Source of the DNA: an uncultured Verrucomicrobiales bacterium
GTDB taxonomy: Bacteria; Verrucomicrobiota; Verrucomicrobiia; Verrucomicrobiales; Akkermansiaceae
Direction: 5' to 3'
Assembly: GCA_937969495.1 (NCBI GenBank)
Contig: CALBVY010000047.1
Coordinates: forward strand, 1-51,932
Length of the DNA stretch: 51,932 nucleotides
The notes under the pieces were generated by a model. The model was given only the letters and a program-made list of their open reading frames with translations, searched no databases and had not been told where the DNA came from. A program made the position numbers and the translations under genes. Shown here in pieces: positions 12,780-44,006 of the stretch. The first letter of the stretch is position 1; each line of letters opens with the position of its first letter.

Positions 12780-12795
12780 CAACTAAATATAGTAT
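12780..12795. promoter_or_regulatory. Weak NrdR-like box before nrdR
   Basis: The 16-mer CAACTAAATATAGTAT agrees with the NrdR-box consensus acaCwAtATaTwGtgt at 12 of 16 positions, including the central C-W-A...ATATWG core. It sits about 70 bp before the nrdR start codon in an AT-rich promoter region. I see no second box 31 bp away on either side, so it is a candidate for weak autoregulation only. Confidence 0.35.
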
Positions 12796-12860
12796 GTTTT
12801 TTTCTTTCACACCCCCACATTTGCTGTTTTAGGTTTGTTTTCACAATCTGAAAAAATCTT

Positions 12861-13352
12861 ATGCGTTGTATACAGTGCGGATCACTCAAGGACAAAGTCA
12901 TTGACTCTCGAATGTCGAAGGACGGCACCACTACGCGGCGTAGAAGGTTCTGTCTCGCCTGCGATTACCGCTACACGACCTACGAGCAAATTGAGCGCAC
13001 CGAGCTACAAGTGGTGAAGAGAGACGGCACACGGGAATCCATTAACCGCGAGAAAATTTTCCGAGGCTTGGTCAAAGCATGTGAAAAGAGACCTGTATCC
13101 ATCGATCGCCTAGACCGTGCCGTCGATGAAATTCTCGCCGAGCTACACAAAGATCACCTCTCCGAAGTGCCCTCTAGCAGCATTGGCCCTAAGGTGATGG
13201 CAAAACTCCATGAGATCGATCCCGTAGCCTATGTTAGATACGTATCCGTTTACCGTCAGTTCGATAATGTCGGTGAGTTTATCCGTGAAATTCAAGCACT
13301 CGAAACACGCGCTTCCAGAGATCCTCACCAGCGCAAACTTTTTAAAGAATAG
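12861..13352 (+). CDS. nrdR: Transcriptional repressor NrdR
   Basis: 163 residues. NrdR senses ATP/dATP and represses ribonucleotide reductase genes by binding paired 16-bp NrdR boxes. The N-terminal zinc ribbon has Cys pairs at 3/6 and 31/34 (MRCIQCG and CLACDYRYTT), followed by an ATP-cone domain from about residue 50 to 140 (VVKRDGTRESINREKI...). Length and motifs are canonical. Candidate target boxes are at 38939-38985 and, weakly, upstream of this gene. The next gene is 30 bp downstream. Confidence 0.97.
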   Translation: MRCIQCGSLKDKVIDSRMSKDGTTTRRRRFCLACDYRYTTYEQIERTELQVVKRDGTRESINREKIFRGLVKACEKRPVSIDRLDRAVDEILAELHKDHLSEVPSSSIGPKVMAKLHEIDPVAYVRYVSVYRQFDNVGEFIREIQALETRASRDPHQRKLFKE

Positions 13353-35042: not shown

Positions 35043-38000
35043 TTAGGCATCAAGCTCTAAGGCTGCCTTCTGTGCCGCAGTCTTAGCTTCACCTTTTTTA
35101 TGCTGCCCATCCTCAGATGCAGTTAGACGCATACCTACTGGCTTGGATACCCCAAAGTCCTCCATGGTGACACCATACATCATATCAGCACGTGCCATTG
35201 TCCGCTTACTATGTGTTACAATGATAAACTGCGAGTTATCAATAAACTTATCAAGCACACGTAGGAAACGTCCAATATTTGCTTCATCCAGTGGCGCATC
35301 AAGCTCATCCAATACACAAAATGGGCTAGGCTTGATCTGGTAGATGGAAAATAGCAGCGCAACCGCGGTCATCGAGCGTTCACCACCAGAAAGCAAACTA
35401 ATGGACTGTAGCTTTTTACCGGGAGGCTTAGCGATGATATCAATACCGCTTTCGAGCGGGTCATCCTTATCAACAAGCACGAGATTCGCGGTGGCTTTAT
35501 CACCAAAGAGCACTTTAAACATACCGGTGAAGTTCTTAGCTACCTGATCGAAGGTCTCTGTGAAACGTTTTTTGGTCTCTATATTAATACGCTCAATTAC
35601 CTCAACGAGTTCTGTTTTCGAGTTAACAAGATCATCGTGCTGGTTACGGAGATTGTTGTGAAGGTCTTCAAGTTCGTCATACTCCTCAATGGCATCTACG
35701 TTAACAGGTCCCATGGAGTCGATCTTACGTTTGAGATCGGTAACTATCGTATCCACAAGATCCCAGTCCGGACCAACATCTCCTGGGAGATGATCGATAT
35801 CCACCTTAGCTGCCTCATCGTTCGGTGCAGGAGCCGCTACAACGGCTTCACCATCACTATCCTGACGGCGTCTCTCCTGACGTTCATGCGCTTTTGCACG
35901 CTCTTGCAAACAACTAAGGAGAGCATGGGAGTCTGGGCGGAAATGTTTAAGCTCCAGCTGATGACGCTCCATCACCATTTCATTCAGATTTTCTAACCTC
36001 AGGCCAATCTTAGTGGCAGCTACTTCCTCGCGTCCTTTCTGCTCGGTGATTTTTGAACATTCACGGCGTAGTTCAGAGAGTTCTTTTTCACTGATTTCAA
36101 TCGCCTGATGAAGCCCCCCACGGCTAGCTGAAGTCTCTTCCAACAACGTCTCAAGATCCTGAGCCTCAGCAGTGTGAGTTTCGATGGTATCTTCTAACGT
36201 GGCATTTTCAGTAAGAGCTGCCTGCATACGCTCATTGAAATTAGCGATTTCTTCATCACGCCGATGACTAATCTGGCGCAGCTCTTCAAGCCGTGCCGCC
36301 ATTGGCGAGCGTTGCTGCTCGGCAGCCTCCAATGCCTGACGTTCTACGGCAAGGCTGGTGCGGAACTCTTGAAGCTGCGCAGTGGCCTCATTCTCACGGC
36401 GGCTAGCTTCCTCAAGCTCACCAGCTAGCTTGACTTGATCTGCCTCTAAACGCTCCATACGTGAACGCGCACTAGCAAGATCTGCCTCAAGTTCCTCTCG
36501 CCCACTGAAGGCACTTTCCTCACGTTGGCGGATGTCATTACGCTCCCATTCCACACTAGAAATCTTAGTCTCTAATGATTCCACTTCACGGTTTGCCAAA
36601 GTGAGCTGACCTTGCAAAGTGGACTCCTCCACACGCGCTTGCTGGAGACGGTCTCTGGCTGCCTCTGTAGCTTCACGCTGCTCCGCCACCTGCGTCTCTA
36701 ATCCTGCTAGATGAGCACGGGCAGCTTCATCAGCAGATTCTAACTCCGCCACGGTAAGCTCGAGCGCACGAACTTCATTCTGCCGTTCTAAGACAGAATT
36801 CTGATCACCGCTACTCACCCCGCCACGTACCGCTCCTTCAGGGCTACAGACTTCACCACGCAAAGTAACCAAAGTGACATCAGGCAGCTCCTTACGCATA
36901 TCTAACGCTAGACTGAGATCACGGACGATAAGCACCTTTCCTAATAAATGCTCCACCACCGATGTGACTTTGGAGTCTGCTTTGACTCGATCCATCGCCC
37001 AGGTCTCTGCGCCATCAGGCACGGTCATCATCTGGCCGGAGGATGAAGGCGCTACAAAATCTGCTGGGATAATGGCTGCTTCACCAAGCTTTTTCTCGGT
37101 AAGACGATCAATGATCGCTTGGGTGTAACTCTCGTCCGTGACTAGTACAGACTGCAAGTGACTCCCCAGAGCAGCTTCTACCGCAACGGTATACTCTGGC
37201 TCTACTTCAATCAGCCCTGCGAGTACCCCGCTCACACCATTACTAAAAAATTCTGGTTCATCAAGTCCCTTGAGAACAGCTTGGGTTCCTTTCTGAAAAC
37301 CTTCTCCACTATCCACTAACTGCTTCAGCACATCAAGACGTGAGGAAGCGTTTGCCAGCTCTTTATGTGCACTCGCGGTATTATCTCTTGCCGCATCCAG
37401 ATCACCACGAGAGTGCTGAAAATTACGCTCTGTGTGATCTTTTTCCTCTTCGAGTGAAGTAAGCTTACTACGGCGGCTCTCAAGATCAGAGGCAATATTC
37501 CCCTGCTCTAATAAAGCTTGTTCATGCTCAGCCTGGAGTCGCTCATTCTCTTCAGTGAGCTTACGTGAACGCTCACGGCTATTTTCCATCTGAGTCATCG
37601 CACTCTCGATTTTTGCCTGTCCGGCAGCGATGACACTCTGAGTGCTATTAGCCTCATTACGCAAACTGCGGAGAATACCTTCTTTTTCCTCACGTGCAGC
37701 ACGCTCGGTGGCTACGCGGCTTTCATGCTCGGCGAGGTGTATCTGCTGAGATTCTATTCTCCCCGTGAGCTCCTCGAGCATTTTCTCCGCTTCGGCAAAG
37801 TCAAATTGCTGCTGCTGAAGTTTATCCTGAGCATCTTCAATATCGCTTTGGTTCTGAGTAACACGTGCTTCTAACTCACTCTGGCGTTCTTTATTAAACG
37901 CTATACGGCTTTCAGCAGCATTGGCGGCATTAGTATGTTCATTCAGCTGCTGACGGATATCAGAAAGTTCTGACTCAAGACTCTGAGCCGCATCACGTGC

Positions 38001-38834
38001 ATCTACTACGGCTTGTTCTTTTTCTGGCAAACCAACTTCCAGCTCTGTCTCACGAACCTCTAACGAATGGATAGAAGTCTCTAGCTCTGAAAGTTCTGCA
38101 CTGTATTCGGTAAACTTTCGGTGAGCTAAATGAGTATCGAGCACCCTTACATCTGTAGCGAGTTCTTGATAACGACGTGCCTTAGCGACCTGCCGTTTCA
38201 GAGAGTTCATTCGGCGTTCCTGTTCGGCAAGTACGTCTGAGACGCGAAGGAGATTGGCCTCTGTATACTCAAGCTTTCTCAGGGCTTCTTTTTTTTCCTT
38301 TTTAAACTTAGTGATGCCAGCTGCTTCCTCGAACACTGTACGCCTATCCTCAGGCTTGGAGCTAAGCAGCATATCGATCTTACCTTGCTCCATAATGGAG
38401 TAAGACGTCCGGCCAATGCCTGTATCCATAAATAGCTCATGAATATCTCGAAGCCGACACAGTGTGCCATTGATCCGATACTCTGATTTTCCATCGCGAT
38501 AGACGCAGCGGGTGATCGCCACTTCGTTATAGTCCACCTTCAACGTCTCTTCACAATCTGCGAGCGTCATCGTCACCTCGGCCATACCAAGGGCGGCACG
38601 CGCACGGCTGGTGCCACTTTTATCCGTGCCATTAAAAATAACATCCGCCATTTCTCCCCCACGCAATGCCTTTGCGGAAGTTTCACCCAGCACCCAGCGA
38701 ATCGCATCCACTACATTCGATTTCCCACAGCCATTTGGTCCCACAATCCCAGTGACGCCTTGTGGATGAAATTCAAATTTAGTTTTGTCAGCAAAGGACT
38801 TAAAACCGTGGAGATCGAGAGATTTGAGATACAT
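35043..38834 (-). CDS. smc: Chromosome segregation ATPase SMC
   Basis: 1263 residues. Walker A GPNGCGKSNVVDAIRWVLGE lies at the N-terminal head (about 32-52), followed by a long coiled coil, the hinge (about 510-660), the second coiled coil, and the C-terminal head with the signature LLSGGERSMTAVALLFSIYQ and Walker B FCVLDELDAPLDEANI. SMC with ScpAB compacts and resolves the chromosome. A Pro/Asp-rich insertion near residue 990 (DSDGEAVVAAPAPNDE) is unusual. scpA and scpB are not adjacent. Upstream, at 38939-38985, are two phased NrdR boxes. Confidence 0.97.
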   Translation of the reverse strand: MYLKSLDLHGFKSFADKTKFEFHPQGVTGIVGPNGCGKSNVVDAIRWVLGETSAKALRGGEMADVIFNGTDKSGTSRARAALGMAEVTMTLADCEETLKVDYNEVAITRCVYRDGKSEYRINGTLCRLRDIHELFMDTGIGRTSYSIMEQGKIDMLLSSKPEDRRTVFEEAAGITKFKKEKKEALRKLEYTEANLLRVSDVLAEQERRMNSLKRQVAKARRYQELATDVRVLDTHLAHRKFTEYSAELSELETSIHSLEVRETELEVGLPEKEQAVVDARDAAQSLESELSDIRQQLNEHTNAANAAESRIAFNKERQSELEARVTQNQSDIEDAQDKLQQQQFDFAEAEKMLEELTGRIESQQIHLAEHESRVATERAAREEKEGILRSLRNEANSTQSVIAAGQAKIESAMTQMENSRERSRKLTEENERLQAEHEQALLEQGNIASDLESRRSKLTSLEEEKDHTERNFQHSRGDLDAARDNTASAHKELANASSRLDVLKQLVDSGEGFQKGTQAVLKGLDEPEFFSNGVSGVLAGLIEVEPEYTVAVEAALGSHLQSVLVTDESYTQAIIDRLTEKKLGEAAIIPADFVAPSSSGQMMTVPDGAETWAMDRVKADSKVTSVVEHLLGKVLIVRDLSLALDMRKELPDVTLVTLRGEVCSPEGAVRGGVSSGDQNSVLERQNEVRALELTVAELESADEAARAHLAGLETQVAEQREATEAARDRLQQARVEESTLQGQLTLANREVESLETKISSVEWERNDIRQREESAFSGREELEADLASARSRMERLEADQVKLAGELEEASRRENEATAQLQEFRTSLAVERQALEAAEQQRSPMAARLEELRQISHRRDEEIANFNERMQAALTENATLEDTIETHTAEAQDLETLLEETSASRGGLHQAIEISEKELSELRRECSKITEQKGREEVAATKIGLRLENLNEMVMERHQLELKHFRPDSHALLSCLQERAKAHERQERRRQDSDGEAVVAAPAPNDEAAKVDIDHLPGDVGPDWDLVDTIVTDLKRKIDSMGPVNVDAIEEYDELEDLHNNLRNQHDDLVNSKTELVEVIERINIETKKRFTETFDQVAKNFTGMFKVLFGDKATANLVLVDKDDPLESGIDIIAKPPGKKLQSISLLSGGERSMTAVALLFSIYQIKPSPFCVLDELDAPLDEANIGRFLRVLDKFIDNSQFIIVTHSKRTMARADMMYGVTMEDFGVSKPVGMRLTASEDGQHKKGEAKTAAQKAALELDA

Positions 38835-38938
38835 GGTTGTGCTATAAAAAAATTAAAAGGACAAAGGCGAGACACGCTCGGTGAGTTCCTGCCACTCTAA
38901 TGAGGAATTATTCTCCCACCAAGTGAAATCCTTCATTT

Positions 38939-38985
38939 ACAGCATATATAGTGTGTTTGAAATATTATTACACAATATATTGTGT
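38939..38985. promoter_or_regulatory. Tandem NrdR-box operator
   Basis: Box 1 (38939-38954) is ACAGCATATATAGTGT and matches the NrdR-box consensus acaCwAtATaTwGtgt at 14 of 16 positions. Box 2 (38970-38985) is ACACAATATATTGTGT, a perfect palindrome and an exact match. Their centres are 31 bp apart, about three helical turns, as in known NrdR operators. They lie in the 296-bp gap between smc (start 38834, reverse) and lipB (start 39131, forward), so either or both could be repressed. A TATATA-like -10 candidate for smc overlaps box 1. NrdR is encoded at 12861 in this window. The rest of the gap shows no other feature. Confidence 0.8.
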
Positions 38986-39130: not shown

Positions 39131-39775
39131 ATGCAACTGACGCATCGCTGGCTGGGACAAGGCGTGGATTTCCAAAAAGGATTGGAAATCCAGCAGCAGG
39201 TAGTGCAAGCGATCCTTGATGGGAAATCAAAAGATCAGCTACTCTCTCTGGAACACACACCAGTTTATACGATTGGGCGCACCCGTGATCAAAGCTCCCT
39301 AGGCCCCCAAGCAATGATGCTTCCCCATCCTACCGTTGAGATTAATCGCGGAGGGCAGGCAACTTACCATGGCCCAGGACAACTCGTAGGCTATCCTATT
39401 CTTGATCTGAAACCGCTCGGAAAAGATCTCCATGCTTATATCCGAGCGATTGAAGAAGCCCTCATTAAAACCTGTGCGGTCTATGATGTGATTGCCTCCA
39501 GACGCGAGGGACTGACTGGAGTTTGGGTAGACAACAGAAAATTAGCGAGTATTGGTGTGGGTGTTAGAAAGTGGATTAGTATGCATGGCTTTGCCATAAA
39601 CATCAGCAAGGAATCGCTAACTGGATTCCTCTCCATTACCCCTTGCGGTATTGATGGTGTGGCAATGACAAGTCTGGAAAGCGAATGCGGCCATAGCGTT
39701 CAAGTAAAAGAGTTTGCAGATCTCTGTGCTGAGCACTTGGCTAGCTCCTTAAAAAACCTCCAGATCTCATCCTGA
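39131..39775 (+). CDS. lipB: Octanoyltransferase (lipoyl synthesis)
   Basis: 214 residues. Moves octanoyl groups from acyl-carrier protein to lipoyl domains. Motifs are the EINRGGQATYHGPGQLVGYPI signature (about 75-95), the NRKLASIGVGVRKW segment with the catalytic Lys, and ITPCGI with the catalytic Cys near residue 174. Length is typical. lipA is not adjacent. The gene is convergent with the AI-2E permease gene and shares its upstream region with smc. Confidence 0.94.
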   Translation: MQLTHRWLGQGVDFQKGLEIQQQVVQAILDGKSKDQLLSLEHTPVYTIGRTRDQSSLGPQAMMLPHPTVEINRGGQATYHGPGQLVGYPILDLKPLGKDLHAYIRAIEEALIKTCAVYDVIASRREGLTGVWVDNRKLASIGVGVRKWISMHGFAINISKESLTGFLSITPCGIDGVAMTSLESECGHSVQVKEFADLCAEHLASSLKNLQISS

Positions 39776-42779: not shown

Positions 42780-44006
42780 TTACGCACCTATGCCTGGCAT
42801 CTCCTCCGCCACTTGCAGGGTGCGGTGTTTACTCAGTCTTGCCTCATTGGCGAAGCTCGGCCAGTCATTGATTGCTGCGATCACATTTTCAATCGTCTGG
42901 TTCACTTGGCGCACACCTTGAGATTCACCAAGGCGCTGTAAATCAGCACGCGTTACATCCATACTTTTGCCATTCACAGAAGCTGCACGCATACCACTTA
43001 CCAGTGGATTCGATGTCCGCGTAAGATCATACGCAGGTGATACGAGCCACCGCCCATCAGGCTGCATGAGAAAGGCGTGGTTCTTTGCATGATCATCATC
43101 ATTACCAGCTAGTATGTTAAAACATGCACGCCGGAAAATCTCCTCCACCTCTGACTCACTACCAGTAAGCACTCGGGTCAAATCCATTAAATCTCCATAC
43201 TCCAGCCCGCCCCTAACAGGAGTATGACTAATACCCGAATAGGTATGGATATGTCTACGCGTCTTCCCTGGACGATCAAATCTCTTGGAAAGAAAATGAT
43301 GCGTTCCGTCCTTACCTTCAAGCAAGTGGGTGTGTGCCATATGGATACCTGCTGCACGGGCCATAAGTGAGTATGCGTATTCTTCTTTGCCATTTTCATA
43401 CTCTGGATCCAAATCAAACTTCAACAACCAGCGTGTATAACCTGATGGAAGCAGCCCCCCACCAGCCACAGATTCGGTAAAGTCGTCATTAAAACCTAAT
43501 AATACTTTCGGCTGCGCACCTCCTGGAGAAAGCCCAGATCTCAGTAAACCAGGGAGCATATCCCCCGTTTCACCATAAATAAAAGAATGTGCATTACTCA
43601 CCAGCTCCGCCACCTCCACAGTGAGCTCATCTCTAAAGCTATCCGTACACGCAGATGGTAAATAACCTATTGCCCCCATCGCATGCCTGCCAGTGCACGC
43701 AAGCTTCTGTAAGGATGTCACCTGATTCCAAGGAATACCTTTATCACCAAAAAACCGCCTCATCATCTGCTCTCCCCACCAGTCCGGCAGACTATCTGAA
43801 AAAAGCCCAAAAAGCCCATCATACTGCGGCGTAGGAGTGGTTACTGAACCCTGCAGCGAAGTAGGCAGGTAAACTGGTGAGAGCTCGATGCCTCTTTTCA
43901 CCCAGTCCTGATTGTATTCAAAAAAGATTCTTCCATCTTTCGCCTCAGCAAGTGCTCCAATCACTTTCCGCTCACCGCCGCCCAAATATAATACCTCCAC
44001 TCTCAT
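42780..44006 (-). CDS. hipA: HipA-family kinase (type II toxin)
   Basis: 408 residues. HipA Ser/Thr kinases phosphorylate translation targets such as glutamyl-tRNA synthetase and can cause dormancy. The N-terminal subdomain has the GLFSDSLPDWWG motif, the nucleotide loop region is LSPGGAQPKVLL, and the catalytic core NDDDHAKNHAFL plus the metal segment SPAYDLT follow. The start codon overlaps the end of the antitoxin gene by four bases, the usual coupling. Convergent with pyrD. Confidence 0.92.
   Translation of the reverse strand: MRVEVLYLGGGERKVIGALAEAKDGRIFFEYNQDWVKRGIELSPVYLPTSLQGSVTTPTPQYDGLFGLFSDSLPDWWGEQMMRRFFGDKGIPWNQVTSLQKLACTGRHAMGAIGYLPSACTDSFRDELTVEVAELVSNAHSFIYGETGDMLPGLLRSGLSPGGAQPKVLLGFNDDFTESVAGGGLLPSGYTRWLLKFDLDPEYENGKEEYAYSLMARAAGIHMAHTHLLEGKDGTHHFLSKRFDRPGKTRRHIHTYSGISHTPVRGGLEYGDLMDLTRVLTGSESEVEEIFRRACFNILAGNDDDHAKNHAFLMQPDGRWLVSPAYDLTRTSNPLVSGMRAASVNGKSMDVTRADLQRLGESQGVRQVNQTIENVIAAINDWPSFANEARLSKHRTLQVAEEMPGIGA

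Follow-up and report, generated by a model that had tools for sequence, protein, structure and literature searches.

The smc-lipB intergenic region

The window, which is the whole stretch of 51,932 nucleotides analysed here, contains smc and the divergently oriented lipB, and the intergenic region between the two genes carries two predicted boxes for the regulator NrdR followed by a predicted promoter facing smc (Table 1). The window also holds its own nrdR gene. The original prediction had already named these three genes, and profile matches confirm the names.

Table 1. Coordinates of genes and predicted regulatory features in the window
Feature	Position	Strand	Remarks
Outer (promoter-distal) NrdR box, smc operator	38970..38985	(-)	ACACAATATATTGTGT, perfect palindrome, predicted site
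Inner (promoter-proximal) NrdR box, smc operator	38939..38954	(-)	minus-strand reading ACACTATATATGCTGT, one of its half-sites degenerate, predicted site
Predicted -35, smc promoter (TTGGTG)	38917..38922	(-)	16 bp past the inner box; hand-derived coordinates
Predicted -10, smc promoter (TAGAGT)	38894..38899	(-)	17-bp spacer, weak in this genome
smc, chromosome segregation ATPase	35043..38834	minus	inferred target; TIGR02168, 1050 bits
lipB	39131..39775	plus	divergent neighbour, not the conserved target
nrdR	12861..13352	plus	TIGR00244, 176 bits
Second NrdR-like box pair, weaker, shortly before nrdR	12780..12827	(+)	32-bp spacing; at 15.7 bits, second among the independent pairs of the window

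The consensus of NrdR-binding sites is the 16-bp palindrome acaCwAtATaTwGtgt (PMC4009431), with which the outer box agrees in 16/16 and the inner box, read on the minus strand, in 14/16 positions, while the centres of the two boxes are 31 bp apart and the spacer amounts to 15 bp. Recounting and remeasuring thus gave the values originally stated, an exact palindromic match next to a 14/16 match in tandem at a centre spacing of 31 bp. An NrdR operator requires two boxes with a spacer of 14-17 bp (PMC12051234). Five matches to the consensus within three mismatches occur in the window versus a mean of 0.51 in shuffled versions of it, and in the whole assembly (2.47 Mb, 98 contigs) just two further loci match the outer box within three mismatches. 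Scored with a position weight matrix (PWM) built from the nrd promoters of relatives only, the smc box pair reaches 33.7 bits and the next independent pairs of the window 15.7 (just 5' of nrdR) and 8.2 bits; box-like matches of this genome were also seen on contigs C59 and C30, the one on C59 having no partner box by the nrd matrix.

The G-C pairs at positions C4 and G13 of the box are critical for NrdR binding (PMC9110341). Three of the four are present in the smc box pair of this genome, position 13 of the inner box (minus-strand reading) being C and not the critical G. In relatives, the outer boxes at smc have kept C4 in 33/33 and G13 in 32/33 cases, and the inner boxes C4 in 32/33 and G13 in 20/33. 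This one-sided degeneration of the inner box affects the same place in the nrd inner box, where position 13 is not G in 18/19 sequences of the family.

Two additional candidate elements were discarded, a small open reading frame between boxes and smc (positions 38853-38936), which has no counterpart in relatives, and an RNA element in the smc leader, for which a fold z-score of -1.0 and no Rfam match were obtained. Elsewhere in the window, a HipA-like kinase (42780-44006, minus strand; PF07804, PF13657) is a possible component of a toxin-antitoxin system.

nrdR and the ribonucleotide reductase genes

The NrdR protein encoded in the window has all its zinc-ribbon cysteines intact, as well as D15, R17 and R26-R29, the residues that contact DNA (PMC9110341). 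Relatives have one nrdR copy per genome; nrdR was not found in the 96% complete assembly G027, yet both operators are present there, and G010 (83% complete) equally shows both operators with nrdR not found. The weaker box pair in front of nrdR, which the original prediction had not mentioned, probably serves autoregulation of this gene; nrdR-upstream sites are also present in five relatives (G004, G012, G036, G041 and G050).

As had been claimed, no ribonucleotide reductase (RNR) gene lies near the boxes at smc. The class I RNR operon is located outside the window on contigs C26 and C94 and consists of two small-subunit genes followed by nrdA, the product of which has an ATP-cone at its N-terminus. 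The tandem arrangement of the class I small-subunit genes nrdB' and nrdB before nrdA (L008:2090-3801, contig C26) is found throughout the genus and in G026, with a single match in most other genomes of the family.

Conservation of the box pair in front of smc

The assembly belongs to the Verrucomicrobiota and most likely to the family Akkermansiaceae of the order Verrucomicrobiales, judging by the nearest named locus (L040), which is 96% identical over the SMC N-terminus. Conservation was assessed by searching for the SMC N-terminus in 58 genomes and reading the DNA upstream of the matches; a matrix derived only from outer boxes at nrd promoters scored the pairs present there far above dinucleotide shuffles. 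Upstream of smc, a box pair with a spacing of 31-32 bp is present in 14/14 genomes of the genus, and most members of the family and the order possess a pair with 31-32 bp between the centres, a few with 30 or 33 bp. The pairs are mostly located about 100-200 bp ahead of the start codon, and their sequences drift between genera. Among the Verrucomicrobiales, 50/54 genomes have a pair upstream of smc that scores above the 99% shuffle level; the figure is 38/62 for the remaining Verrucomicrobiia and 6/47 for other phyla. Roughly one in three class members from outside the Verrucomicrobiales is without the smc pair, and in families f10 and f17 it is absent from every genome read. The survey of related genomes proposed with the original prediction did not refute its smc part, as the boxes are kept at smc from the genus up through the family and the order and across much of the class.

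In near-complete genomes of the same-family genus g3 (possibly Akkermansia) and of the class genera g44 and g66, no convincing match to the SMC N-terminus was obtained, which suggests that SMC has been lost or replaced there.

Relation to the nrd operators of the lineage

The nrdB promoter of the family carries the boxes CCACAACATGTTGTAT and ATACTATATGAGCAAA, which are 32 bp apart. Reciprocal searches with two models were performed. Model R2, trained only on the smc-upstream pairs of relatives with this genome left out, ranked the smc site first in 14/14 genomes of the genus and also retrieved the upstream sites of nrdB, nrdD/G, nrdJ and nrdR. Model R3, for which only the outer boxes of nrd served as training set, was run on 58 whole genomes at E<=0.1 and retrieved approximately 54 distinct sites (counted by hand from the listed places), comprising 31 at nrdB(A), 5 at nrdD/G, 3 at nrdJ and 3 at nrdR (together 42), 10 at smc and 2 others, so that smc is the sole recurrent target besides RNR genes and nrdR. 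By these reciprocal searches, the operator at smc and the nrd operators of the lineage share one motif.

Paired boxes with no obvious target gene were observed right after mnmG at L220, L222 and L223 (genomes G007, G009 and G005), and in G006 a model match lies at a contig end beside mnmG (L221).

Promoter architecture

The -10 element of the predicted smc promoter reads TATATT or TATACT in relatives. From the inner box to the predicted -35/-10 promoter the gap is 16-17 bp in 33/44 distinct Verrucomicrobiales sequences, compared to at most 6/44 in 200 shuffles; among the 31 sequences listed after those of the genus, the same gap occurs in 22/31 versus at most 5 in shuffles. We read this constancy as NrdR being held on one helix face relative to RNA polymerase, as far as predicted promoters can indicate. 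At nrd genes, which have a conserved TTGACC-type -35, the gap from the inner box to the predicted -35 is 6-7 bp in 19/22 cases, and the smc gap and the nrd gap thereby differ by about one helical turn. At smc itself, a gap of nrd-like length (6-8 bp) occurs in family f6 (two genomes) and in the deltaproteobacteria-like order described below (15/20 genomes).

A second, distant occurrence

Box pairs before smc are also present in an Auribacterota metagenome-assembled genome (MAG; L065) and in two MAGs of Proteobacteria (L089, L112); in none of the three do the open reading frames neighbouring the smc pair include an nrd gene. The SMC protein of L112 is nearest to deltaproteobacterial SMCs, and in its order the pair precedes smc in 20/30 genomes, usually followed by a CTTTACA-type -35. 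Furthermore, nrdR is present in 9/9 outlying genomes tested. In the L112 order, R3 retrieved sites at nrdJ and nrdD and a single one at smc, though together with more unexplained matches, wherefore the case for this order rests mainly on position and spacing. The predicted link to smc, originally put forward as a trait of one lineage, is thus conserved, but not confined to that lineage, as it recurs in a distant proteobacterial order.

In three genomes of the L112 order (L297, L298 and L310), an R3 match lies upstream of a response-regulator-like open reading frame of 119-123 amino acids.

Proposed regulation and alternative readings

Taken from sequence comparison, the two boxes very probably constitute an NrdR operator of which the smc promoter is the conserved target, and smc is most likely co-regulated by NrdR together with ribonucleotide reductase. 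As NrdR becomes a tetramer with dATP and ATP and then binds to two boxes (PMC9110341), a rise in dATP would let the dATP/ATP-loaded tetramer bridge the two boxes three helical turns apart, placing it just upstream of the -35 of smc and in fixed phase with it, upon which smc transcription would be altered together with that of the RNR operons and nrdR. If the effect is repression, SMC and RNR would both be made while dNTPs are consumed, and both would fall as dATP accumulates. We consider repression of smc rather likely; co-repression is favoured because the sites match the nrd operators and because the gap at smc is nrd-like in two lineages.

The same operator could also act with the opposite sign, NrdR at about -60 and -91 activating smc when dATP is high. 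The 16-17 bp gap does put the box centres where we would expect an upstream activator to sit, and topA has been reported to be activated by NrdR in Pseudomonas aeruginosa (PMC4409342). However, nrd is the classical case of repression, and the nrd operators of the same genomes are likewise situated just upstream of a predicted -35, which leaves the sign not fixed by geometry and weakens geometry as proof of activation, the conserved nrd -35 following the inner box after 6-7 bp; moreover, in family f6 and the deltaproteobacteria-like order the gap is as long at smc as at nrd. Activation is regarded as the less likely sign, though worth keeping in mind beside co-repression.

A regulator other than NrdR recognizing a similar palindrome might act at smc, a reading into which the drift of box sequences between genera would fit. 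It is quite improbable, as the nrd-trained and the smc-trained model each retrieve the other's sites and those of nrdR genome-wide, spacing and critical bases agree with NrdR, and there is one nrdR per genome.

Still more improbable is an operator that serves lipB with smc as a bystander. In this genome and in 12/13 others of the genus, lipB does diverge from the intergenic region that it shares with smc, but it adjoins the boxes only inside the genus; at loci outside, the boxes remain at smc with no lipB, and they keep a fixed distance from the predicted promoter facing smc. The partner conserved beyond the genus is thus smc; lipB as the target is rejected on grounds of neighbourhood, and the suggested tie of lipB to dNTP status is left unsupported.

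That AT-rich palindromes arose by chance in an AT-rich intergenic region can practically be dismissed, as the observed pair score was reached by no shuffle in 29/30 smc loci and by 1/200 in the remaining one, the median across the order is 21.6 bits versus a shuffle maximum of 8.1, and 10 of the approximately 54 sites of the R3 whole-genome search lie at smc.

With NrdR acting on smc as the preferred reading, a physiological meaning can be envisaged. Bacillus subtilis without smc is rescued by hydroxyurea, an RNR inhibitor that slows replication forks (PMC3919155); as slowing of forks compensates for the loss of smc, SMC would be most needed when replication is fast. On balance, we favour NrdR as a common dNTP sensor that, in no fewer than two bacterial groups distant from each other, sets SMC dosage together with RNR output and thereby might match the capacity for sister-chromosome resolution to fork speed. 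If true, the conserved smc operator would tie dNTP sensing to chromosome segregation via one transcription factor.

Relation to known NrdR systems

NrdR has been described as an RNR-specific repressor (PMC9110341), and its targets in the accessible literature are RNR genes, often nrdR itself, and topA. A link between NrdR and smc was not found in the accessible literature, an earlier prediction in subscription papers or RegPrecise tables being possible. The smc operator resembles the nrdRJ operator of Streptomyces coelicolor (PMC9110341) in its two 16-bp palindromes, the 31 bp between their centres and the largely conserved C4/G13 (three of the four G-C pairs in this genome), and it shares the degenerate inner box with the family's own nrdB operator. 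Unlike nrd operators such as that of S. coelicolor nrdRJ (PMC9110341), its target would be a chromosome-organising gene and not RNR, and the distance between boxes and -35 in Verrucomicrobiales is greater at smc than at nrd by about one helical turn. A closer parallel in kind of target is topA of P. aeruginosa (PMC4409342), equally a non-RNR DNA-maintenance gene under NrdR, which is predicted here for smc; topA, however, has a single box and reported activation (PMC4409342), whereas at smc a conserved, phased pair is found in other phyla.
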